Assembly (NCBI RefSeq): GCF_001485535.1
Contig: NZ_BCMZ01000001.1
Location: forward strand, 1,426,001-1,490,000
Direction of reading: 5' to 3'
From: Halobacterium sp. CBA1132
GTDB taxonomy: Archaea; Halobacteriota; Halobacteria; Halobacteriales; Halobacteriaceae
Length of the DNA stretch: 64,000 nucleotides
Under the pieces are notes generated by a model, which ran no database searches, was not told the origin of the DNA, and worked only from the letters and a program-made list of their open reading frames with translations. Of this stretch, positions 12,895 through 57,026 are shown piece by piece. The position numbers were made by a program, and so were the translations under genes. The first letter of the stretch is position 1; each line of letters opens with the position of its first letter.

Positions 12895-12986
12895 ACTCGT
12901 GTCGTTCGCCGCCGGCCCCAAAACCGTTTCTCAATCCGCGCAGGAGATTCTCGGCTCCACGAGAAACGAGTTGTGTAGAATGTTAG

Positions 12987-13069
12987 CGGTGAGGCTGGGA
13001 TTTGAACCCAGGAGGCGTAACGCCACCGGTTTTCAAGACCGGCGCAATAGGCCGCTCTGCCACCTCACC
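12987..13069 (-). tRNA. tRNA-Ser(UGA)
   Basis: This 83-nt class II tRNA has a 7-bp acceptor stem (GGTGAGG/CCTCACC) with discriminator G and a D-arm. The anticodon stem CCGGT/ACCGG has loop CTTGAAA (anticodon TGA), followed by a long variable arm (GGCGTTACGCC) and T-arm TGGGTTCAAATCCCA. The long variable arm and UGA anticodon make it serine, reading UCA. No intron and no encoded CCA are seen. Confidence 0.96.
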
Positions 13070-13128
13070 ACGCGAGCGACCGTACGACGAGTGGACGGTT
13101 CAAACTGTCGTTGTCCGGCAGTCGGGAA

Positions 13129-13260
13129 CGCCCCCGCCCCCGGATTTCGAGTGTTCGACGGGGAACGATAGGGGCCGTGCGAACGTCGGTCGATGCGACC
13201 ACCGATTTCGGATGAGTAACCACGGCGGCAACACGCCCACCCCGTTTTGCAAGTGTTATG
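13129..13260 (-). repeat. Upstream ORB-like origin recognition boxes (two)
   Basis: Two minus-oriented copies of an ORB-like motif lie upstream of the orc gene. On the minus strand, 13129-13157 reads CGAACACTCGAAA followed by a G-run, and 13231-13260 reads ACACTTGCAAAACGGGG. They are the inverted counterparts of three boxes beyond the gene. ORBs are Orc1/Cdc6 binding sites at archaeal origins; origin function is inferred. Confidence 0.7.
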
Positions 13261-13422
13261 GGAGAATTGAAAGGGTCGGTAGCGGGTGCAGGTGCCGCGG
13301 CGCTACGGCAGCAGGAGAAATATCGGTGTGGGTACTACGAACACACCAACGAACACACGAAACTGAAGAAACGATAGAACCGAGGGTATTATGGTGGATG
13401 GGCAGAAAGCCACTCGCAAGCG

Positions 13423-14607
13423 ATGAAGACGCCGTTCCGTGACCGCGTCGAGCTGTTCACCAACAAGGACGTCCTCAAGGATCACTACGAGCCCGAGGAA
13501 ATCCTCGAACGCGACGAGGAGATCGACCAGTACGCCAACGCCCTCCAAGACGTGGTCGACGGCTGGGAGCCCGACAACGTCTTCGTCTACGGGAAGACCG
13601 GCGTCGGGAAGACCGCCGTGACGCGGTACATGATGGACGCCCTCGAATACGAGGCCGAAGACCGCGAGGGCGTCGACGACGTGGTGAGCGTCGAAGTCAA
13701 CTGCCACCACCACCCCTCGTCGTATCAGGCCGCAATCGCGCTCGTGAACGAACTCCGCGCGGACACCGACCGCGACCCGCTCACTACGGGGCTGTCGACG
13801 TCGGACGTGCTGAACGCGCTGTTCGACGAAATCGAAGCACGAGAGGGAACCGTGCTCATCGTGCTCGACGAAATCGACAACCTCGGCGACGACGACATGC
13901 TGCTCTACCAGTTGCCGCGCGCGAAGACGAACGGCAACATCTCCGACTCGCAGGTCGCGGTCGTCGGCATCTCCAACGACTACACGTTCCGCAACGACCT
14001 CTCGCCGAAAGTGCAGGACACGCTCTGCGAGCGCGAAATCAAGTTCCCGCCGTACGACGCGAACGAACTCGTCACGATTCTCACCGACCGCGCCGAGCGC
14101 GGCCTCCGCGGCGACGTTCTCGACGACGGCGTCATCCCGCAGTGTGCGGCGCTCGCAGCCCGTGACCGGGGAAGTGCGCGACAGGCGATCGACTTGCTCC
14201 GGGAGTCTGTCAACGTCGCTGTCGAAGACGGCCGGGAAGTCGTCTCCGAGGAAGATGTCGACACGGCGGTCGAGCGCGTCGAACGCGGCCGTATCAAGGA
14301 CTCCATCAAGGACCTCACGACGCACGGCCAGTACGTTCTGCTCGCGGTCACACAGATATCGGTCAGCGGGGAGACGCCGGCCCGCGCGAAGGAACTCTAC
14401 GAGGTGTACGAGGACGTCGCCGCGGAGTACGCGGCCGAACCGTTGAGCCAGCGTAGTGTCCACGACCACCTCAACGACCTCTCGATGCTGGGATTCCTCC
14501 GCCAGCACGACCGCAACTACGGGCGCGGCGGCGGCCAGTTCTTCGAGTACGAACTCGACGTCGACGCGGAGATGGTGCGAGAAGCGATGGCCGACGAAAC
14601 CGATTGA
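13423..14607 (+). CDS. Orc1/Cdc6 family replication initiator
   Basis: This 394-residue AAA+ initiator binds origin ORB sequences and recruits MCM. It has Walker A GKTGVGKT (residues 57-64), Walker B in VLIVLDEIDNL, sensor 1 near VVGISNDYTF, an arginine-rich sensor 2 segment (ARDRGSARQAIDLLR) and a C-terminal winged helix (about 310-390, with YGRGGGQFFEYEL near the end). Length matches haloarchaeal Orc1 paralogues of 370-450 residues. Inverted ORB-like boxes occur on both sides, with about 160 bp of more AT-rich DNA between the second box and the start. It may therefore be autoregulated and is probably the cognate initiator of this origin. Which numbered Orc paralogue it is cannot be decided. 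Confidence 0.93.
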   Translation: MKTPFRDRVELFTNKDVLKDHYEPEEILERDEEIDQYANALQDVVDGWEPDNVFVYGKTGVGKTAVTRYMMDALEYEAEDREGVDDVVSVEVNCHHHPSSYQAAIALVNELRADTDRDPLTTGLSTSDVLNALFDEIEAREGTVLIVLDEIDNLGDDDMLLYQLPRAKTNGNISDSQVAVVGISNDYTFRNDLSPKVQDTLCEREIKFPPYDANELVTILTDRAERGLRGDVLDDGVIPQCAALAARDRGSARQAIDLLRESVNVAVEDGREVVSEEDVDTAVERVERGRIKDSIKDLTTHGQYVLLAVTQISVSGETPARAKELYEVYEDVAAEYAAEPLSQRSVHDHLNDLSMLGFLRQHDRNYGRGGGQFFEYELDVDAEMVREAMADETD

Positions 14608-14671
14608 CATCCTCGCGACGTTCTTCCACGCATTTTCGCCGAGCACTCGCTGACCACCACTTGGTTCTACG

Positions 14672-14820
14672 TTCGAACACTCGAAAACCGGGGGTGGGAG
14701 GGGGACTCCTGCCGGCTACCCCGCCTGTCCCCGAGCTACTTTCACTTGCAAAACGGGGTGGGGGAGAAGACACCGGTGACCCACCCCACGAACGAGAACA
14801 ACACTTGCAAACGGGGGCCC
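14672..14820 (+). repeat. Downstream ORB-like boxes (three)
   Basis: Three plus-oriented ORB-like boxes follow the orc gene. They are 14672-14704 (GAACACTCGAAAACC plus G-rich tail), 14740-14766 (TTCACTTGCAAAACGGGG) and 14800-14820 (ACACTTGCAAACGGGGG). Together with the upstream pair, all G-rich ends point away from the orc gene. Confidence 0.72.
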
Positions 14821-14831
14821 GCCCGCGCTCC

Positions 14832-15596
14832 TTACTCGCGGACGAGCACGCGGTCGTCGTCTGCTTCCTCGACGCGGAGACCGAGGTCTTCGACGTACGC
14901 AGTCGTGAACGCGGGGACGACGCGGCCGGCGGCACGGCGCGCGCGAATCTCCGCGACGACCGAGACGAGATCGCTGCCGGTGCGTACGCGAGTGTGTTCG
15001 TGGAGGAAGTCGACGTCGTGGCCGGCGTCGACGGCGCGCGCGGTCACGTTCTCGATTTCGGGCGGACTCCACGCGCCCTCGAAGTCTATCGGCTCGCGGA
15101 AGCCAGCGAAGTAGAGGCTGCCCTCCCGGGACGGCCCGACGACGACGGGATTCCGGCGGAGTTTCAGCGCCGCGCTGTCGACGTGCTTGCGCGCGACCAG
15201 CGGCGTGTCGGGTTCGAGAACAGAGACCGACGCCACGCCCTCGCGGTCGAGCAAGTGCGTGACCGTGTTCCCGACGCGGGCGTGCTTCGAGGACCCGACC
15301 TGCACTTCGACGCGCGCCTCCTCCAGTTGTTCTTCATCGAGGACGTCTTCGACGAGTTCGCGGACTTCCCGTTCCGCGTCGGCGCCCTCGGGCACGTGCT
15401 CGTCGGGAATCTCGTCGTCCGGGCGGTAGTTCACGAGCAGGTCGCCGCCGCTGTCGGCGGCCGCGTGGAACGCGTCGGCGGCCATCGCCTCGTACAGCGA
15501 TGCGGCCTCGCGCTCGGAGAGCGGCGACGTGGCTGCCAATTCCGGCAGGACGAGTCCTTCCCGCGGCGGGTCCACCGTGACGGCGACGACAGTCAT
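14832..15596 (-). CDS. GT-A-fold nucleotidyl/glycosyl transferase-like protein (DUF2064-like)
   Basis: This 254-residue protein resembles DUF2064/MobA-like GT-A folds. LPELAATSPLSEREAASLYEA parallels the KTRL..LS..EAA helix, and VVVGPSREGSLYFAGF parallels the family's GP.DGG.Y..G motif. The canonical N-terminal KTR and the DGG motif are altered, so catalytic activity is uncertain. The ATG at 15596 begins MTVVAVTVDPP, a typical first beta strand. It lies next to the origin on the opposite strand, 99 bp downstream of the UDG-like gene. Origin-adjacent conserved proteins are known in haloarchaea, but I cannot assign one of those names. Confidence 0.65.
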   Translation of the reverse strand: MTVVAVTVDPPREGLVLPELAATSPLSEREAASLYEAMAADAFHAAADSGGDLLVNYRPDDEIPDEHVPEGADAEREVRELVEDVLDEEQLEEARVEVQVGSSKHARVGNTVTHLLDREGVASVSVLEPDTPLVARKHVDSAALKLRRNPVVVGPSREGSLYFAGFREPIDFEGAWSPPEIENVTARAVDAGHDVDFLHEHTRVRTGSDLVSVVAEIRARRAAGRVVPAFTTAYVEDLGLRVEEADDDRVLVRE

Positions 15597-15695
15597 ACGT
15601 TGCCCTCCGTCCGGGGGACGCTTGAACACCGCGATACGGTGCCCGCGCTAGTTCCCTCCAGCAACCGCCGCGTTCGCCCCCACGAAGCGGTCGCG

Positions 15696-28455: not shown

Positions 28456-29163
28456 TCACCGGTTCTCGGGTTCAGCCGTAATCCACTGCTCGCTGCTGGA
28501 GAGCAGGACCAACTGGTCGGCGACGTCCTCCATCGCGTCGACGAGCTGGTCGAACAGGAACGCGAACTCTCGGTACACCAGCGGGTCGGGGACGTCCGCG
28601 TCGAAGACGTCCGCGACCACGGCGTTCCGCACGCTGTCGCACTCCGTCTCGGCGGCCCGAATCGCCTCGACGTGTCCGGCTATCGACCCCGTCTCGGTCG
28701 CCGAACACAGCAGGCGGACGAACTCGTAGACGGCGTCGCCGAGCGACGCCATCGCCGCCGTCGCGTGGTCGACCATCTCCCGGTAACGCCGGAAGCACCG
28801 ACGACGCCTCGCCGGCGAGACCGTCAAGAGGTCCTCCGCGACCCGCTCGGCCGTGTTCGGAATCTCGTCGAGCAACTGGTAGAGCCGCACCACCTGCTCG
28901 GCGTTGAGGTGCATGCGGGAGTTGCGGATGCCGAACTCCTTGACGGTCGTGTTCGTCACGAGCGCACTGATTCGCCGGCTCTTCGCGTCGCAGTCGCTCT
29001 CGACGGCGCGAATCTCCTCGACGAGGGCCCGCGACGAATCACCGTCCTCGTACTCTTCGACGAGTCGCGACAGCAGTTCCACGCACTCGCTGATGCGGTC
29101 GAGGTACGCGTCAGTCCGGTCGACGACCCGCTTCGAGAACTCCGGAGTGGCCTCGGGTGACAT
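28456..29163 (-). CDS. DUF47/PhoU-like protein
   Basis: This 235-residue all-helical protein resembles the DUF47 family of PhoU-like domains, with heptad-like helices (FSKRVVDRTDAYLDRISECVE) and acidic E/D pairs (EEIRAVESDCDAKSRRI). Relatives often accompany Pit-type phosphate permeases and may bind metal clusters or regulate transport; no permease is adjacent here. Before the island inserted, this gene probably lay directly downstream of chorismate mutase, since the island's left repeat is 84 bp from its start. Confidence 0.8.
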   Translation of the reverse strand: MSPEATPEFSKRVVDRTDAYLDRISECVELLSRLVEEYEDGDSSRALVEEIRAVESDCDAKSRRISALVTNTTVKEFGIRNSRMHLNAEQVVRLYQLLDEIPNTAERVAEDLLTVSPARRRRCFRRYREMVDHATAAMASLGDAVYEFVRLLCSATETGSIAGHVEAIRAAETECDSVRNAVVADVFDADVPDPLVYREFAFLFDQLVDAMEDVADQLVLLSSSEQWITAEPENR

Positions 29164-29246
29164 CTATTCGAGGATGGCACCGGCAGTCGCAAAGAGGTTG
29201 ATATGAGGAGTCCGTACGCCGCAATAGCCGACCGTATCCCGCCGGA

Positions 29247-29279
29247 TCAGCGGTTCTCCCGCTGTTCGACCTTGTTCAA
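29247..29279 (-). repeat. att-like copy 1: original chorismate mutase 3' end
   Basis: On the minus strand these 33 bases encode LNKVEQRENR and a stop in GC-rich host codons. They match the last 11 codons of the chorismate mutase gene at the protein level but differ at 14 of 33 bases. This is best read as the displaced original chromosomal end (attR) of the integration site. Confidence 0.75.
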
Positions 29280-29377
29280 ATCGCTAAAATCCATACTGGA
29301 TTGCAGTGAAACCACTCTTGGTTTCGATTCTGTTCTGTCGAATCCGTGGTTGAGAATTACAGTCACAGACCGCCTGG

Positions 29378-29815
29378 TCACTTCTCCCCCGACTCCAATC
29401 GCTCCAAAACCTCCCAAAACACACGTACCGGCTGTTCACTCCCGAACGACACAGCCGCATACTGATACTCGTCAGCGGCGGACTGCCGCTTTTGGTGATG
29501 CCCCCATCCATCCACGTGTGGGTTCGGTTCGTGATGCCAGCCACAATCGAACCCGGATTCCTCGCTGTAGTGGAACGAGAACTCTGGACGGGCGTCTCTG
29601 GTGTCGCCTGCATACCAACGCACGGTCAGCACGCCTGAACTCGACGACCGACCGAGGCGCTCCGGGAGGACATCCATCCGCACTTGCGTGAACAACGACG
29701 ACGGATGCCCGCGTGCCTGTTCAACAGCAGGATGCTTCTCAGCACTCCGTCGCATCTCCAACAACGCAGCGTGTGACGCTTCCCCTGAATCGTACCCGCC
29801 ATCAGCAGCAAACAC
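29378..29815 (-). CDS. TumE-like toxin candidate
   Basis: This 145-residue protein starts at GTG 29815, two bases after the stop of the HTH gene, so the pair is one operon. The segment EFSFHYSEESGFDCGWHHEP, then HVDGWGHHQKR, resembles the Y/FD..PHH....FPHHKH motif of the TumE toxin family. The C-terminal strand AAVSFGSEQPVRVFWEVLERL closes a small alpha/beta fold. TumE-type toxins pair with HTH antitoxins. The match is by eye and the N-terminal 50 residues are unlike the core family. Confidence 0.55.
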   Translation of the reverse strand: MFAADGGYDSGEASHAALLEMRRSAEKHPAVEQARGHPSSLFTQVRMDVLPERLGRSSSSGVLTVRWYAGDTRDARPEFSFHYSEESGFDCGWHHEPNPHVDGWGHHQKRQSAADEYQYAAVSFGSEQPVRVFWEVLERLESGEK

Positions 29816-29817
29816 GA

Positions 29818-30342
29818 TTACGCCCGGGCCGGCGCCCCACCAGACGAGTACTCTGCGTAGTGCTCGATGGCATCTTCGACCAAATTGAGTCGATACCGAA
29901 CCACGTCCCAATCCGCCGCCACACGACGCAATTCACGCGTCTGTTCCGCAGTCTCGACTGTCGCGGCCTGCTCACGAAGCTCGTTCGCGGCGGTCACATC
30001 GTACTCCTCGTTCCACGACTCAATCTGCTCTAACAGCTCCGCTCGCACGTCGATCAAGTCGTCACGGTCACGACCGTCCAGCAGTTCTCGCAACGACCGC
30101 ATGCGTGTGTACAGCGGGTCAGGCTGGTACAGCGTTGCTTGCGCTCCAGTCTGCCGTTGCAGCACGTTCATCTCCACGAGACGACCCAAGTGGTCTCTGG
30201 CGGTGTTTCCTGCCACAGCTGCTTCGTCGGCGATCCAATCTGCCGACCGAGGTTCGCTGAGTGTGACCGCAACAGAGCGCACGCGGTCGAATGCGCTCGT
30301 GTTCTCCTTCCACGTCTCGATTCCGGGCGCTTCACCAGTCAT
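29818..30342 (-). CDS. Winged-helix regulator, TA antitoxin candidate
   Basis: This 174-residue protein has an N-terminal winged helix (about 15-75; SADWIADEAAVAGNTARDHL, then GRLVEMNVLQRQTG) followed by a long helical C-terminal part (85-170) with coiled-coil character. It belongs by appearance to haloarchaeal HTH proteins found beside small toxin-like genes. It lies just upstream of the TumE-like gene, so it probably neutralises that protein and represses the operon. The start ATG at 30342 was preferred over an extension to 30420. Confidence 0.75.
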   Translation of the reverse strand: MTGEAPGIETWKENTSAFDRVRSVAVTLSEPRSADWIADEAAVAGNTARDHLGRLVEMNVLQRQTGAQATLYQPDPLYTRMRSLRELLDGRDRDDLIDVRAELLEQIESWNEEYDVTAANELREQAATVETAEQTRELRRVAADWDVVRYRLNLVEDAIEHYAEYSSGGAPARA

Positions 30343-30484
30343 ACTACTCAATTGCAACCAGAGCACAATAATACTACTGGGGGTGCATCTATTTGAACTA
30401 TCATTCTCATTCGTCAGCAACCCGAGCGCGAACAGAATCGCGGCGAGAACGCCCTGAAAGTCACTCTTACACGCCTGATTTGGG

Positions 30485-30517
30485 CTACCGATTGCTTCTT
30501 TGCTCCACTTTGTTCAA
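30485..30517 (-). repeat. att-like copy 2, internal
   Basis: These 33 bases are identical to the last 33 bases of the chorismate mutase gene (33424-33456), stop codon included, but nothing upstream of them matches the gene. The copy marks an internal junction inside the island. Confidence 0.85.
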
Positions 30518-30619
30518 AGGGGTGAATTCCACCATACACGCTATCGAGAAGGGGTGCTGAGCGCCACCAAAATCAATCTAGTGGTAAGATTCTTTGTCAG
30601 TGGTAACGTACCCTCATCT

Positions 30620-30865
30620 ATGTCGGCAGAGACGGATGGCCAGGGACGGCTGTACATCCCGAAGGAGGTACGGGAGAAGTACGGTCAGAAGTACCACATC
30701 GTCACCTACGAGGACAGAATCGAGCTGATTCCGGTCGCGGACGACCCGCTCGCCGCTGTCCGCGAGGCCGCAGGCGAGCTTCACGATGCATCCTTCGAGG
30801 AGATTCGAGCGGACATCGAGGCCGAGGCGAAAGACGAGGCCGAGCAAGCGGGCGGCGACAGATGA
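30620..30865 (+). CDS. AbrB/MazE-like antitoxin
   Basis: This 81-residue protein has a swapped-hairpin AbrB-type N-terminus (TDGQGRLYIPKEVREKYGQK, then YHIVTYEDRIELIPV) that binds DNA, and a helical tail (residues 45-81) that would wrap the toxin. Its stop overlaps the start of the PIN gene by 4 bp (ATGA). The start at 30620 was chosen because the longer frame from 30500 begins inside the att-like repeat. Confidence 0.82.
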   Translation: MSAETDGQGRLYIPKEVREKYGQKYHIVTYEDRIELIPVADDPLAAVREAAGELHDASFEEIRADIEAEAKDEAEQAGGDR

Positions 30866-31248
30866 CAGTGTACGTCGAGATGGACTTCCTGCTCGCGCTC
30901 GCCAAAGATTCTGATTGGTTGCAGGGCTCCGCAGAGGACGCCCTCGCCGAGCACGACGTCGAAACGTCACCGTTCTCGTATCTCGAACTCCTGCTCGCAC
31001 GGGAACGCTACGAGTTCGACTACGTACCGCTGGTGGCGAACCTGCTCGAACTCGTCCCTGTACGGGATGAGGAAGAGAAACAGGTAGTGCTGAAAGCCGT
31101 CAACTACTACGACGAGGGAATGACGCCGTTCGACGCCTTCCACGCGGCGACTGCGGAAACGCGAGGGATGGACGTGCTTTCCCCCGAGAGAGACTACGAA
31201 GACGTCGAGGTAGAACGAGTCCCACTCGAACCGACCGACGAGGACTGA
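30862..31248 (+). CDS. PIN-domain toxin (VapC-like)
   Basis: This 128-residue PIN-domain protein has candidate acidic ligands at Asp8 (VEMDFLLALAKD), Glu42 (YLELLLARE) and Asp91 (TPFDAFHAATA), and a C-terminal acidic residue near 104-111. Such RNases cleave tRNA or mRNA when not bound by antitoxin. The ATGA overlap with the AbrB-like gene marks a standard TA operon. The first motif reads VEMD rather than the more usual IDTN/LDTS form. Confidence 0.82.
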   Translation: MTVYVEMDFLLALAKDSDWLQGSAEDALAEHDVETSPFSYLELLLARERYEFDYVPLVANLLELVPVRDEEEKQVVLKAVNYYDEGMTPFDAFHAATAETRGMDVLSPERDYEDVEVERVPLEPTDED

Positions 31249-31340
31249 CGTAAATTCCTTCGGACGGTGGGTGAAACAGCCGATAAGTTGGCGTGCGATT
31301 TCACCACACAGTTTTCACGGATGCGGAGATGTAATCTGGT

Positions 31341-31565
31341 ATGGTGACTCGCCCGTCTCTCCGAGGATTTGGCGCGGCCTTTGTTGTTGGTGTCGCTATC
31401 CTCTGTATGGGAGTGATTGCACTCGGTTTCCTCATGCCCGACCGACTCTTCGGGAGTACTGTAGGATTAGTCGCCTTCTTCGCCGCCGGCCTCCTGATGG
31501 TCGTCTGCGCAGTCGTTGCAAACTTCTACGACCTCCGAGGGATTCTCCACAACGAGTTCGGCTAA
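31341..31565 (+). CDS. Small two-TM membrane protein
   Basis: This 74-residue protein has two predicted membrane helices (GFGAAFVVGVAILCMGVIAL and LVAFFAAGLLMVVCAVVANFY) with a short loop between. No family is recognised. It lies in the island after the first TA pair, with its stop directly abutting the stop of the convergent 63-aa membrane protein gene. Confidence 0.65.
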   Translation: MVTRPSLRGFGAAFVVGVAILCMGVIALGFLMPDRLFGSTVGLVAFFAAGLLMVVCAVVANFYDLRGILHNEFG

Positions 31566-31757
31566 TCACTCACTGAACACTCGGAGTCCGAGATAGTACG
31601 CGCCGCCGATGACGACCGCGGAAATAGCCGCTGTACCTGCCGCCGCAATCGGGCCCGATGAATAGTTCAACGCGAAGGTGACAATGGCAACGACGACCGC
31701 GCCAATCAGTGCTTGTCCAAGAAGGGGTTTCCCCTCCAACCACGCGTTAATTCCCAT
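31566..31757 (-). CDS. Small two-TM membrane protein, 63 aa
   Basis: This protein starts MGINAWLEGKPLLGQALIG and has two hydrophobic segments (GAVVVAIVTFALNYSSG and ISAVVIGGAYYLGLRV). A longer frame reaches 31877, overlapping the PIN stop as TGATG, but its extra 40 residues are charged, so ATG 31757 is preferred. No function can be assigned. It follows the second PIN gene on the same strand. Confidence 0.6.
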   Translation of the reverse strand: MGINAWLEGKPLLGQALIGAVVVAIVTFALNYSSGPIAAAGTAAISAVVIGGAYYLGLRVFSE

Positions 31758-31796
31758 AATTGCCCTCTCAAAGCGTACTCCGTTTAACCGTTCGTC

Positions 31797-31902
31797 TGTA
31801 CTTAGCGAGATCCGGTCATCTACACTGGATTCGGTTTGCTCGAAACGGTGGTCGTGGCCCAAGCAGCGGACGAACATCAAATCTTCCGGCTACTCGTCGA
31901 GT
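31797..31902. repeat. 106-bp repeat, copy A
   Basis: This segment, covering the last codons of the PIN gene and its 3' flank, recurs in direct orientation at 33238-33343 with 14 differences in 106 positions by hand count, mostly transitions. Copy A is presumably the source or better-preserved form. Confidence 0.85.
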
Positions 31903-32278
31903 ACGTCTCGACGACGTCCTGCTCGTCGAAATCGGAATCGTCGCTCCAGATGCCGGCTTCGCTAGCCAAGGCACACGCAACGTATAGCACGTCGTCGGGA
32001 GCGGTTTCGCCGATCGCCGCGTCGGCCTCTTCGATGTAGGGGTGGAACTCGTCTGCGGGGACGACCTCGATGTACTGGAACAGGAGGTCGATGAACTGCT
32101 GGACGCGCTGCGGTTTCATCCCGGACTTCTCGACGATGAGGGCTTCGTAGTTCCCGAGTTCGTCGTGGACGAACGCGGGCGTCAACAAGTCGGGTTCGAG
32201 CGTGACGATGAGTTCACGTGTTTTCGAATCGGCGATGAGTGCAGAGATGACGACGTTGGCGTCGATAACCAGCTTCAT
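31877..32278 (-). CDS. PIN-domain toxin (VapC-like)
   Basis: This 133-residue PIN protein has Asp6 in LVIDANVVISALI, Glu40 in FVHDELGNYE, Asp96 in APDDVLYVACALA and a C-terminal acidic cluster (SDDSDFDEQ, 112-120) that completes the metal site. All expected ligands are present, so it may be active. The antitoxin gene ends 8 bp upstream on the same strand. The last codons (STSSRKI) lie inside the 106-bp repeat. Confidence 0.85.
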   Translation of the reverse strand: MKLVIDANVVISALIADSKTRELIVTLEPDLLTPAFVHDELGNYEALIVEKSGMKPQRVQQFIDLLFQYIEVVPADEFHPYIEEADAAIGETAPDDVLYVACALASEAGIWSDDSDFDEQDVVETYSTSSRKI

Positions 32279-32286
32279 CCAAGAGG

Positions 32287-32517
32287 CTAGTCCGACTGTT
32301 CTTCGACGCGCTCGCGTCCACGCTCGTTGATTCGATCCGCAATCTCTGTCACGTCGCTCTCAGTGAGCTCGCTCTCGCTGGTGAGTTCGTCCATCACTTC
32401 GAGGGCCTCGATTTTCTCCTGGATGGCCTGTCGAGTGACCTCACTCCAGTTGATCTCTGGGTGTCTCTCCATTCGGTCTTTGAGCTCGTCGTCCACGTTG
32501 ACGGTGATACTAGGCAT
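32287..32517 (-). CDS. Antitoxin of PIN pair (ribbon-helix-helix type)
   Basis: This 76-residue protein begins PSITVNVDDELKDRMERHPE, a beta strand and helix typical of VapB/CopG-like DNA-binding domains. INWSEVTRQAIQEKIEALEV follows, then an acidic Ser/Glu-rich helical tail that would bind the toxin. It is first in the operon with the PIN gene 8 bp later. The start ATG at 32517 is the only candidate. Confidence 0.82.
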   Translation of the reverse strand: MPSITVNVDDELKDRMERHPEINWSEVTRQAIQEKIEALEVMDELTSESELTESDVTEIADRINERGRERVEEQSD

Positions 32518-32732
32518 ACAGGAAACTTTGTAGACACAGAATATTGTGCTTTGCGGTGCATCGACTGGTTCGAGAGCCCCCTAATCTCCATATTGTTCGG
32601 GTATGAACCGCTAAGAATTCTGATTTCCAGCTATGAAGCCTCGAAATAACCGGTTAGTAGATTGGCGAATTACGTTTCGGACACCAGATCTACCGGAAAA
32701 GGATTTTCTATTATTCGGCCATTCTACCGTTA

Positions 32733-33149
32733 ATGAACGTGTCGAAAACAAATATCGTGGAATACTGCTTCGGTCAAGCGGTCGATAGAACTGCGATAGC
32801 AATCCTCCTCTCAGTCGCAGTATTCTCAGCAGTTTATATTTCGTCCCTATTTGACACAGATATTGTTCCGCTCCTCGTGAACACTACTCAAGGCGGCGTT
32901 GTCGTGTTGCTCCTACTGGCCGCTGCATACTACTATCACGAGAATCGAGGGGTGCTGGTCACCTTCCTCATCGTCTTCGCTCCCATCTACGCAGTTTTCA
33001 TTCGCCTCGTTGAACTTGGGAATATTGCACCCAGTCCCCTCAGGGAAGCAGTCGTCGAAGCCGTACCGTTAACCCTGCTGTTCGCCGTTCCAATTACGAT
33101 TCTCTCCATCGGCCTCGCACTCGTCTACGAACGATTCGCCACGAATTAA
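32733..33149 (+). CDS. Four-TM membrane protein of unknown function
   Basis: This 138-residue protein has four hydrophobic stretches: TAIAILLSVAVFSAVYIS, VVVLLLLAAAYYYHE, VLVTFLIVFAPIYAVFI and VPLTLLFAVPITILSIGLALV. No family is recognised. Base composition is AT-rich compared with flanking chromosomal genes, as in the rest of the island. Between 32518 and 32732 I see no other gene. Confidence 0.6.
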   Translation: MNVSKTNIVEYCFGQAVDRTAIAILLSVAVFSAVYISSLFDTDIVPLLVNTTQGGVVVLLLLAAAYYYHENRGVLVTFLIVFAPIYAVFIRLVELGNIAPSPLREAVVEAVPLTLLFAVPITILSIGLALVYERFATN

Positions 33150-33237
33150 TCTGACCACGCTACTGCAACAATCGACGTCACCAGAAGGAGGGGGAGAATA
33201 GCGCGATTTTCGAGTTACCGTTGATACACTTCTATAC

Positions 33238-33343
33238 TGTACTTAGCGAGGTCTGGTCATCTATACTGAATTCGGGTTGTTTGCAACGGTGGTCGTAGCC
33301 CAAGCAGCAGACTAACATCGAATCTTCCGGCTGCTCATCGAGT
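33238..33343. repeat. 106-bp repeat, copy B (decayed)
   Basis: This is a direct repeat of 31797-31902 without the associated PIN gene; in this copy the PIN-derived frame is lost. Its last 22 bases (33322-33343) are an exact inverted match to chorismate mutase coding bases 33456-33477, just beyond the att-like core. Confidence 0.82.
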
Positions 33344-33423
33344 CCGGAACAATTGATGAACAATCGAGAGGGGGATCCCGCGACTAAACCAGTGTTAGAG
33401 CGCCTGTAGTGGGTGTTCTCTGA

Positions 33424-33456
33424 CTACCGATTGCTTCTTTGCTCCACTTTGTTCAA
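33424..33456 (-). repeat. att-like copy 3: present 3' end of chorismate mutase
   Basis: This is the functional gene end. It encodes LNKVEQRSNR and TAG with AGA, AGC and AAT codons that look foreign in this GC-rich gene. It is identical to the internal copy 30485-30517. Together with copy 1 it defines the island; crossover probably lies near the shared TTGAACAA. Confidence 0.78.
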
Positions 33457-33690
33457 CTCGATGAGCAGCCGGAAGATGGCCTTCACGAGGTTCGGGTCGA
33501 CGCCGAACGCTTCGGCGTTCTGGCCGGCGCGGTCCATCACCGCTTGCTCCTGGCTCTCGTCGGTGGTCGCCATTCCGCGGTCGTCTTTGACCTCCGCGAT
33601 AGTCTCGGCGACGTACGTGCGTCGCGCGATGAGGTCGACGATTTCGCGGTCGATTGATTCGATTTCCTCGCGCAGTTCCTCTAAGCTCAT
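33424..33690 (-). CDS. aroQ: Chorismate mutase (AroQ type)
   Basis: This 88-residue all-helical enzyme converts chorismate to prephenate, feeding TyrA. Visible are SLEELREEIESIDREIVDLI, then ARRTYVAETIAEVK (conserved Arg and Lys) and the C-terminal AIFRLLIELNK. ATG 33690 overlaps the shikimate kinase stop as ATGA, so I chose it. A longer in-frame start at 33753 would add 21 Asp/Gly-rich residues and is possible. The last 11 codons appear to have been replaced when the island integrated, preserving the protein sequence but changing codon use. Confidence 0.9.
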   Translation of the reverse strand: MSLEELREEIESIDREIVDLIARRTYVAETIAEVKDDRGMATTDESQEQAVMDRAGQNAEAFGVDPNLVKAIFRLLIELNKVEQRSNR

Positions 33691-34541
33691 GTCGTCCGGG
33701 CCCCGTCCAGCTGCGTCGTCGTCAGCCGGACTGTCCCCGGGTTCTCGTCCCATAGTGGTTTCACCTCCGTGAGTGCGTCGTGGTCGCCGACGGCGACGTA
33801 GCTCGGGCCGGTGCCCGAGAGGGACGCCCCGTCGGCGTGCGGGAGGGCGTCCACGATTGGCTCGGTCGGGTGGCCGAGCGCCGCCGCGAACGCCAGGCCG
33901 TTGACGGTCATCGCGGTGCCGTACTCGCCGTCGGCGGCGAGGTCGGCGACGTGGTCGGCCATCGGCGCGATTCGCTCGCAGCGCGCGACGTCGGCGTCCG
34001 CGGAGAACGACTGCTCGGGGGGCGTCCACACGAGCGCCGCCCACTCGACTTCGTCGCGGAACAGCAACTCGTCCTCGCGGTTGTCCGTCATCGTGAGTCC
34101 GCCGAGCATGCTCGCCGAGGCGTCGTCGAACGCACCCGTGACGGTGACGCCGACATCGCGGGCGGCCGCGACGCCGAGGCGTGCGGCGCGCTCGCGGTCG
34201 ACGGACTCGGCTTCGTCGAGCGCGTCCAGCGCCGCCAGCACCGTGGCGTTCGCTGCTGCGCTGGAACTCTTCAGGCCCGACGCCATCGGTATCTCGCTGT
34301 CCGTGTGGACGGTCCCGCCCTCGCCGTGCCCGTACTCGTCGGTCACCAGCGACACGCAGCGCTCCACGAGTGCGGTGTCGGCGTCCGGGTGGTCGGCGAC
34401 GCTACCGGTGACGCCGTCGGCGGCCGCGTCCAGCGACACCTCGGCTGTCACGTCGAAGTCGAGCGCGAACGCCGACCCGATGCCCGTCGCGAGCGCGTTC
34501 AACACGGTGCCCGCGGCTGGCGCTGCTGCACGGCCGTCCAT
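33687..34541 (-). CDS. aroK: Shikimate kinase, archaeal GHMP type
   Basis: This 284-residue enzyme phosphorylates shikimate with ATP. It belongs to the GHMP superfamily used by archaea in place of the bacterial P-loop enzyme. The ATP-binding loop is IPMASGLKSSSAAANATVLA, with DDASASMLGGLTMTDN and the C-terminal GASLSGTGPSYVAVG motif. It is translationally coupled to chorismate mutase by a 4-bp overlap. ATG 34541 (MDGRAAAPAAGT) is preferred to a GTG five codons upstream. Confidence 0.95.
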   Translation of the reverse strand: MDGRAAAPAAGTVLNALATGIGSAFALDFDVTAEVSLDAAADGVTGSVADHPDADTALVERCVSLVTDEYGHGEGGTVHTDSEIPMASGLKSSSAAANATVLAALDALDEAESVDRERAARLGVAAARDVGVTVTGAFDDASASMLGGLTMTDNREDELLFRDEVEWAALVWTPPEQSFSADADVARCERIAPMADHVADLAADGEYGTAMTVNGLAFAAALGHPTEPIVDALPHADGASLSGTGPSYVAVGDHDALTEVKPLWDENPGTVRLTTTQLDGARTT

Positions 34542-54618: not shown

Positions 54619-55524
54619 ATGGAGCGCGGCGCCATCCCGACAACCGAGATTGCGGGCGCGGTCGACGTGCAAGCTACCATCGAGAGCGGCCAGACGTACC
54701 TCTGGTGGCGGCCCGACGGCGCGACCTACGAGACAGACGGCGCGTCCGGTGGAAACGCGTGGTACCGCACCGTCGTCGACGGCGACGTCGTGGAAGTCCG
54801 TCAGACTGCGGACGCGATCGAGTGGCAGTCCACGACGGACGCGGCCCCGATCGTCCGCGAGTTGCTCGGCCTGAACGACGACCTCCACGAGATTCGCGCC
54901 GCCGCCACCGGCGACGACCTCACTGAGGCCGCGTGGGACGCCTACGACGGCCTCCGCATCGTCCGCGACCCCTTCTTCGGCTGCCTGATCTCGTTTATCT
55001 GCTCGGCGCAGATGCGCGTCGAACGCATCTTCGCGATGCAGGAATCCCTGCGCGAGACGTACGGAGACCCCGTCGAGTACGACGGCGAGACCGTCCACGC
55101 CTTCCCCGAACCCGAGGCGCTGGCGGCCGCAACCGAGGACGACCTCCGCGAACTGAAACTCGGCTACCGCGCGCCGTACGTCCAGCGCACGGCCGAGATG
55201 GTTGCCTCCGAGGAACTCACAGAGCGCGACATCGACGGTCGCGCGTACGAACTCGCCCGCGAGGAACTCACGCAGTTCGTCGGCGTCGGCGACAAGGTCG
55301 CGGACTGCGTGTTGTTGTTCTCGCTGGGGTACCTCGAAGCGGTCCCGCTGGACACGTGGATTCGCTCGGCCATCGAGGACCACTACCCGGACTGCGACCG
55401 CGGCAACTACGCCGACACCTCCCGCGCGATTCGCGCGCAACTCGGCCCCTACGCCGGCTACACGCAGACGTACCTCTTCCACTTCCTCCGAAGCGGTGGA
55501 AATTCGGCGGACAGAGAGACGTAA
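54619..55524 (+). CDS. ogg: 8-oxoguanine DNA glycosylase, OGG1 type
   Basis: This 301-residue base-excision enzyme has an N-terminal beta domain (AVDVQATIESGQTYLWWRPD) and the helical core. The HhH motif FVGVGDKVADCVLLFSLGY carries the catalytic Lys, and the conserved Asp follows in VPLDTWIRSAI. FGCLISFICSAQMRVERI is the OGG family helix. It removes 8-oxoguanine from DNA. ATG 54619 fits the domain start. Confidence 0.92.
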   Translation: MERGAIPTTEIAGAVDVQATIESGQTYLWWRPDGATYETDGASGGNAWYRTVVDGDVVEVRQTADAIEWQSTTDAAPIVRELLGLNDDLHEIRAAATGDDLTEAAWDAYDGLRIVRDPFFGCLISFICSAQMRVERIFAMQESLRETYGDPVEYDGETVHAFPEPEALAAATEDDLRELKLGYRAPYVQRTAEMVASEELTERDIDGRAYELAREELTQFVGVGDKVADCVLLFSLGYLEAVPLDTWIRSAIEDHYPDCDRGNYADTSRAIRAQLGPYAGYTQTYLFHFLRSGGNSADRET

Positions 55525-55806
55525 TTAGGTGTTGTAGATTGAACTCCTGGCCGCCGTCTACCACACCGCAAAAATAGGTTCGCCGCTGTTGCGGGCTATC
55601 GGTCGTGTCCGCGTAGCCTGCGGTAAACGATTCGAAGGCTCTTCACAGGTCCATATTCGGGCGAGTTCGACATGGTTTCGCCCCAATCAGACCCCTCACG
55701 CGACTTTTGGTCACTCGGGGGCATGACTTACGCTATTCTCGGGGCTGCATCCCATTAAGATTTTGGTAATCGGTCATGTTCACTTTCAGTAGGAATTATC
55801 GCGGCC

Positions 55807-56469
55807 TCAGAAGCCATTATCCCGAATATTCATGATTTTATTGAAGAAGAAGTCCGAGGAGTACACTAATACACCAAGGACTAGGATGGCCACAATCTCC
55901 GCGACGAGGAGGATGTACGACATCCCGTGTCCCCGGTAGCCAGTCGCTCCGACGGATAGTCCACCGATAAGCAGCGTGAATCCAGCAATCGAGAAGATGA
56001 GCGCCCACGTAATCGCGTAGGAATTGAACCGGTGGACATCGTGGTTCTTCTCCACCCACGTCGGATACTCCTCCCCCAACTTCTCAAAGTACCGCTCTGC
56101 AGAGATGTTTCCCTCCGCGAGGTCGCGCATCGGTTTCGCTCCGAGCCCCATCTCGAAACTGGACGACGTGTACGCCATCGAGGCAACGATAGTTGAGACG
56201 ATGAGCGAGGCGACACCCAACACGACGTGCGTGTTGAGAAAGTTCGATGCTAAGACTTTGTCACTGCGAATCGACAGCGAAATTCCACTGGTGAGAATCC
56301 CTAAGACGAGAATGTTCAGTCGGGTGATGCCGATTGCTTTGTCGTCTTCTTGGTGTATCTTCTCGGTTTGATGCTCGATGGTTTTCTGACCCTCTGACCA
56401 AGCGTGGCGCTTCGCGTCGGTTAGTCCCCTGCCGGCATCCCCCTCGTCGTCATCATCACTCCCAGACAT
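55807..56469 (-). CDS. Four-TM membrane protein with acidic N-terminus
   Basis: This 220-residue protein has a charged N-terminal region of about 45 residues, TM1 (LNILVLGILTSGISLSI), TM2 (VVLGVASLIVSTIVASMAY), a 50-residue soluble stretch, TM3 (ITWALIFSIAGFTLLIGGL) and TM4 (YILLVAEIVAILVLGVLVY). Two TM pairs around a helical cytosolic part recall SLATT-type effectors of nucleotide-signalling defence systems, but no partner nucleotidyltransferase is nearby. An AATATATAG promoter box precedes it. AT-rich composition marks an accessory gene. The stretch 55525-55806 shows no gene. Confidence 0.65.
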   Translation of the reverse strand: MSGSDDDDEGDAGRGLTDAKRHAWSEGQKTIEHQTEKIHQEDDKAIGITRLNILVLGILTSGISLSIRSDKVLASNFLNTHVVLGVASLIVSTIVASMAYTSSSFEMGLGAKPMRDLAEGNISAERYFEKLGEEYPTWVEKNHDVHRFNSYAITWALIFSIAGFTLLIGGLSVGATGYRGHGMSYILLVAEIVAILVLGVLVYSSDFFFNKIMNIRDNGF

Positions 56470-56704
56470 CGCGTTACGGCCATAATATCAATTACTATAT
56501 ATTATTGTTGGTCGCTGCGGAAAATTGTGAATAGGAGTGCCTCGAACGGCACCGCCGAGCGACTCCACGCGTTCGATAGCGGCCGATTCGTTCGCATCGG
56601 TCAGCGGCGCTGAACAGGCCCGCTAGTTTGATTGCAATCAGCCGGACTGGGTTGGGCAGTGTTCAGATAAGCAGACGAGACGAGCGGAGACGACGTTGTG
56701 TTTT

Positions 56705-56869
56705 GAAAGCCCTCGACGGTCTCGGCCAGCGGGAGACTCGCTATGCTCGTCTCCCGAGGTCTCGTTCGTTTCACTCACGAGACTCCCGCGACTCGCTGCG
56801 CGCGTTCGCTCCCGTTGGTCGCTGACGTGCTTGCTTCGTCGGGGTTCGCCGAGACCGCCTCGCCCTTTC
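56705..56869. repeat. MITE-like inverted-repeat element
   Basis: Imperfect 22-bp inverted arms (56705-56726, GAAAGCCCTCG...GTCTCGGC; 56848-56869, its near-complement) enclose about 120 bp of nested small palindromes built on GGGAGACTCGC. This is a non-coding structure of a kind seen repeatedly between haloarchaeal genes. The rest of 56470-57026 shows no convincing gene. Confidence 0.6.
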
Positions 56870-57026
56870 GATCCACCAGGAGATCGGCTGAGTCACCGGC
56901 TAAAGCCGAGTTCAGTCTAATCCTTATTTGAACACCACCCTCGGTTGAGTGCTGTTCTACCACCTCCGCTCGGGCGGTGACGAATCGGCGCGTGGCTTTT
57001 TGACCGTCGCCGCCGCACGCCATCGC

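Follow-up and report, generated by a model that had tools for sequence, protein, structure and literature searches.

The orc8 locus and its ORB boxes

The window is the whole 64-kb stretch that was analysed (C1:1426001-1490000) of Halobacterium sp. CBA1132, which has a 3.01-Mb genome in 4 contigs. The gene orc8 lies in it between udk/tRNA-Ser and DUF2064/UDG/aroC. The features, by position in the window, are:

12986..13069, minus strand: tRNA-Ser(tga), found by ARAGORN, with the module on its 5′ side.
13126..14831, plus strand: orc8 module (boxes, promoter, gene, boxes); exactly this stretch is absent from the Halobacterium genomes G008 and G012.
13133..13156, minus strand: upstream ORB 1, GAACACTCGAAATCCGGGGGCGGG, 29.6 bits; kept in orthologues.
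13235..13258, minus strand: upstream ORB 2, TAACACTTGCAAAACGGGGTGGGC, 33.9 bits; kept in orthologues.
13332..13392, plus strand: candidate unwinding element and promoter, with 9-bp iterons from 13351 (duplex stability, lag-9 periodicity).
13423..14607, plus strand: orc8, Orc1/Cdc6 initiator with AAA+ and Cdc6_C winged-helix domains, 394 aa (profile matches and orthology).
14675..14698, plus strand: downstream ORB 3, GAACACTCGAAAACCGGGGGTGGG, 31.4 bits.
14740..14763, plus strand: downstream ORB 4, TTTCACTTGCAAAACGGGGTGGGG, 30.8 bits.
14799..14822, plus strand: downstream ORB 5, CAACACTTGCAAACGGGGGCCCGC, 27.1 bits.
14832..15629, minus strand: DUF2064-family gene, right border of the module (Pfam PF09837, 29.6 bits); retained at the empty site.

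The product of the gene has the features of the Orc1/Cdc6 family (an AAA+ ATPase and a C-terminal winged helix in more than 300 aa). It scores 458 bits against TIGR02928 (cut-off 181) and exceeds the cut-offs of PF13191, PF22703 and PF09079, which cover the AAA+, Cdc6 lid and Cdc6_C winged-helix domains (Cdc6_C: 83.5 bits). Among solved structures, 2qby_A (Cdc6 homolog 1) is the closest in sequence (E 9.7e-60). By sequence comparison, the gene is identified as the Halobacterium orthologue of NRC-1 orc8, because, of the four primers published for the orc8 knockout in NRC-1 (PMC1906834), two match the H. salinarum orthologue (L066) exactly, one of them across the start codon. The window protein is 90% identical to this orthologue and both genes have tRNA-Ser(tga) as a neighbour. 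The orc7-type initiator and the gbp/sec/polA context that define the oriC1 family are not found at the orc8 locus; the same genome has its orc7-type locus at C1:2.52 Mb, next to a gene of GTP-binding type. Elsewhere in the window, GC content drops to ~0.55-0.58 (vs 0.67) at 29000-34000 and 55000-57000, possibly foreign DNA.

According to an earlier note on this DNA, ORBs enclose an Orc1/Cdc6 initiator gene: two minus-strand boxes precede it, three plus-strand boxes follow it, and every G-run points away from the gene. The domain matches and the five boxes bear this out, the orientations being as it gave them. ORB repeats with a G-string thus adjoin an orc gene, as is characteristic of ori-orc/cdc6 loci. 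In the window, the ORB matrix scores the five boxes, on which it was itself trained, at 27-34 bits and the next-best site at 11.2 bits; no shuffled window reaches 15 bits. The pattern CACTYGMAAAMCGGGGNNGG, with two mismatches at most, has seven matches in the 3.0-Mb genome, five of which are the orc8 boxes, so that ORB-like boxes are not equally frequent elsewhere, the finding that the earlier note had named as contrary to its reading. Only two further sites above 20 bits are found in ~790 kb of the same chromosome (31.2 bits, before thiI; 21.8 bits).

The upstream boxes all have one orientation, and their inverted partners are found only across the gene. Between them and the gene, a degenerate half-box without G-run (GAACACACGAAAC) lies on the plus strand at 13351. 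When scores were averaged by position upstream of the Halobacterium orc8 genes, a full plus-strand ORB gave a weak peak at -72 and no real box.

Conservation, linkage and decay across relatives

Protein identity with the named orthologues is 90-99% in Halobacterium, 77% in Halarchaeum and 58% in Haloprofundus. Orc8 is 90% identical in H. salinarum (G007), where the proteins of its neighbours are 42-86% identical; the four-fold sites of orc8 have diverged to the same degree as those of its neighbours, which indicates that orc8 is under purifying selection. The orthologous intergenic DNA otherwise aligns poorly and spacing and flanks vary, the boxes still being recognisable. Among the 67 boxes of 14 orthologues (Halobacterium, Halarchaeum), 66 face outward, comprising 30 minus-strand boxes before the gene and 36 plus-strand boxes after it; the remaining one is a plus-strand box before the gene (the reverse-oriented loci L024, L025 and L047 were turned before counting). 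The conservation of this outward layout around orc8 across the genus Halobacterium is new, as are the module borders and the distant thiI box described below. Among family paralogues, L032, L039 and L060 have the same layout, L051, L055 and L056 carry an extra plus box close to the promoter, and the group L036/L040/L042/L043 has an inverted pair downstream of the gene.

The strict outward polarity on both sides of orc8 in all orthologues is also that of the oriC1 pair around its core, and the outermost boxes form the ends of the module. Both features would fit a single origin made of the whole 1.7-kb bracket, in which looping would bring upstream-bound and downstream-bound Orc8 together as an inverted pair spanning the gene, and Orc8 would open the DNA between. 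Such an arrangement is considered unlikely: the box-to-box gap across orc8 is ~1.4 kb, vs 194 bp in oriC1, the weak-duplex stretch is at the promoter and not central, and an inverted partner is present within the upstream region in Haloprofundus (L079) and in Halarchaeum nitratireducens, where a full plus-strand box lies between the upstream boxes and orc8.

Gene and boxes occur together. A box pattern of 20 positions in which no mismatch was allowed, applied to 17 genomes, has 1-6 matches in each of the 15 genomes with orc8 or a remnant of it and none in G008 and G012, both without orc8; the reversed-pattern control has no match. A second box search gave the same trend. One box is distant from the gene: a lone ORB 52-75 bp before thiI (-75 to -52; L012 1498-1521, C1:1408049-1408072), ~31 kb to the left of orc8 and outside the window, scoring 31.2 bits here. 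It is present in 11 of the 13 Halobacterium genomes, namely all 11 with orc8, and absent from both without. Further lone boxes are common to pairs of Halobacterium species (L166, L169; L167, L168); one shared pair lies inside a coding gene, and therefore not every stray box need be functional.

The distribution of the thiI box is what a mainly regulatory locus would give, with its own promoter and remote genes, thiI for one, as the targets of Orc8, and with little or no origin function. In NRC-1, moreover, autonomous replication was not obtained with the region near orc8, the gene itself is non-essential and could be deleted (PMC1906834), and a non-initiator Orc regulator, Orc1-2, is described in another archaeon (PMC9738581). 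This explanation is nevertheless held to be improbable, as box clusters beside an initiator gene are typical of origins and the marker-frequency data for NRC-1 (Coker 2009, as cited in PMC3528665) are read there as an active origin near orc8, together with that of orc10. Should the thiI box prove functional, an archaeal initiator would have a long-range target there.

The boxes and orc8 form a 1.7-kb unit whose outermost boxes are ~8 bp inside both junctions. At the empty site in G008 and G012, the tRNA-Ser flank ending in GTTGTCCGGCGGTCGG joins the stop codon of the DUF2064 gene directly, and the synteny of the neighbours is otherwise retained. The absence in these two genomes counts as one event, since they are sister taxa in the local gene tree, and loss is as likely as gain or likelier and is favoured. 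The empty site was considered as the ancestral state and this was rejected: the two genomes are not clearly basal in the tree (support 0.38-0.47).

A series of decay stages is seen in Halarchaeum and Haloprofundus (L082, L090, L091, L088), from a truncated gene with boxes, through a C-terminal remnant, to relic boxes. In Halarchaeum G018 the gene is truncated and still has boxes around it; a C-terminal remnant survives in Haloprofundus G224, and at most relic boxes in G108 and G156. The gene is present in 3 of 95 genera sampled. The locus is lost or decaying in several relatives and is therefore dispensable. This patchy distribution, the empty site and the remnants would also be left by a decaying, disused replicator from an integrated extrachromosomal element; that origin of the locus is judged very unlikely, the protein and the boxes being well conserved in 11 Halobacterium species.

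The tRNA gene that has orc8 on its 5′ side differs among the three genera: Ser(tga), Leu(gag) and Arg(gcg) (L066, L065, L068). Integration by a tRNA-targeting element was considered and rejected: no integrase directly adjoins orc8, and the module is on the 5′ side of the tRNA gene, whereas attachment sites in tRNA genes mostly occupy the 3′ end.

Promoter iterons and the origin reading

GAA-led 9-bp units (GAACACAC, GAAACTGAA, GAAACGATA, GAACCGAGG) lie directly upstream of the orc8 TATA element and end at TATTAT (13387-13392). Duplex stability in the module is lowest in a 60-bp stretch at 13332-13392, which ranks at the 99.1 percentile of ~667 kb of chromosome; the oriC1 core is at the 99.87 percentile. 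In ~32 orc promoters, the mean lag-9 match is 0.497, vs 0.292 in nearby control DNA, and the lag-18 match 0.432; because these promoters are related to each other, z values cannot be read as probabilities. A set of 70 upstream regions with a TATA element, taken from long ORFs of the same genome, has a lag-9 mean of 0.282; orc8 belongs to this set and ranks first in it. The periodicity is significant for the promoter set and not for the promoter in the window taken alone (P 0.15); several other single promoters give P 0.0005-0.015. Phased 9-bp iterons upstream of TATA are seen in many haloarchaeal orc loci of the family, and a literature search found no description of them at haloarchaeal orc promoters. 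Being common to many haloarchaeal orc genes, the iterons are a candidate unwinding or autoregulatory element.

The orc8 locus is rather probably a secondary origin-initiator cassette, a replicator distinct from oriC1, whose downstream boxes limit Orc8. Orc8 has the two domains of an Orc1/Cdc6 protein and probably binds the ORB boxes. The two minus-strand boxes adjoin the weakly paired iteron stretch with the polarity that the left oriC1 box has towards its core; Orc8 bound there would open the iteron stretch and load MCM. The three downstream boxes would most likely sequester Orc8 and restrain initiation, the role suggested for oriC2D; alternatively, they may act as the distant second half of the origin.

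Family membership, the persistent outward boxes, the co-occurrence of gene and boxes, the oriC1-like polarity and the indications of purifying selection count for the origin reading, as do the marker frequency in NRC-1 and the repression of oriC2 by ORBs downstream of cdc6E, as far as given in PMC3528665 and PMC3936714. Counting against it are the lack of a full inverted ORB partner upstream of the Halobacterium genes, the failure of the NRC-1 region as an ARS and the deletability of orc8 (PMC1906834), the weak GC skew, and the loss or decay in relatives. The GC-skew check proposed in the earlier note, made on two ~400 kb blocks, gave a clear sign switch at orc7/oriC1 and a weak inflection at orc8; the signal is too weak to prove an origin at orc8 and was set aside as such.

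A wider version of the cassette reading is possible but doubtful. It holds that an ORB-bounded replicator cassette is gained and lost as a unit, that the iterons fused to the initiator promoter are the unwinding element, and that Orc8 also binds the thiI box, which would link initiator level, replication and a tRNA-modification gene. The orc8 locus is a well-delimited case: initiator, boxes and distant box are testable together, and there are natural species without all of them.

Comparison with known systems

The predicted origin adjacent to orc8 in NRC-1/R1 is among the closest known systems: the gene is orthologous and both flanking regions carry ORBs (PMC3528665). In the list of Wu et al. 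2012, ORBs occupy the intergenic regions on both sides of several genes, among them orc8 and orc10 of Halobacterium and cdc6E of H. hispanica (PMC3528665). The main text of that paper does not mention the polarity rule, the borders, the empty site, the thiI box or the iterons. The presence of boxes on both sides, which the earlier note had regarded as a notable variant, is thus already listed for orc8; what stands of that remark is that an initiator gene inside the bracket is unusual. The view that the outward boxes depart from an inverted-pair rule is contradicted by oriC1-orc7 of the same genome. Since its boxes also face outward around an AT-rich core, outward polarity is the normal relation of box to core and only the gene inside the bracket is out of the ordinary.

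oriC1-orc7 shares with orc8 G-runs that point away from a weak-duplex core, but it differs in having a compact 194-bp pair upstream of the gene, another box sequence and the clear GC-skew switch. On plasmids of this genome, the orc genes at L003 and L004 also have boxes on both sides, but the nearest ones face inward.

Haloarcula hispanica oriC2-cdc6E/oriC2D is likewise a chromosomal, non-oriC1 initiator, which has ORBs before the gene and an ORB cluster after it (PMC3936714). In that system the ORB-rich DNA that follows cdc6E has a repressive effect on oriC2, for which titration has been proposed (PMC3936714). A downstream cluster of this type is present at orc8, with three boxes vs 11 in oriC2D; the Halorubrum lacusprofundi homologue also has three, and Orc8 is likened to Cdc6E by layout. 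Titration of Orc8 by the downstream boxes, if it occurs, would carry the oriC2D control model over to another genus.
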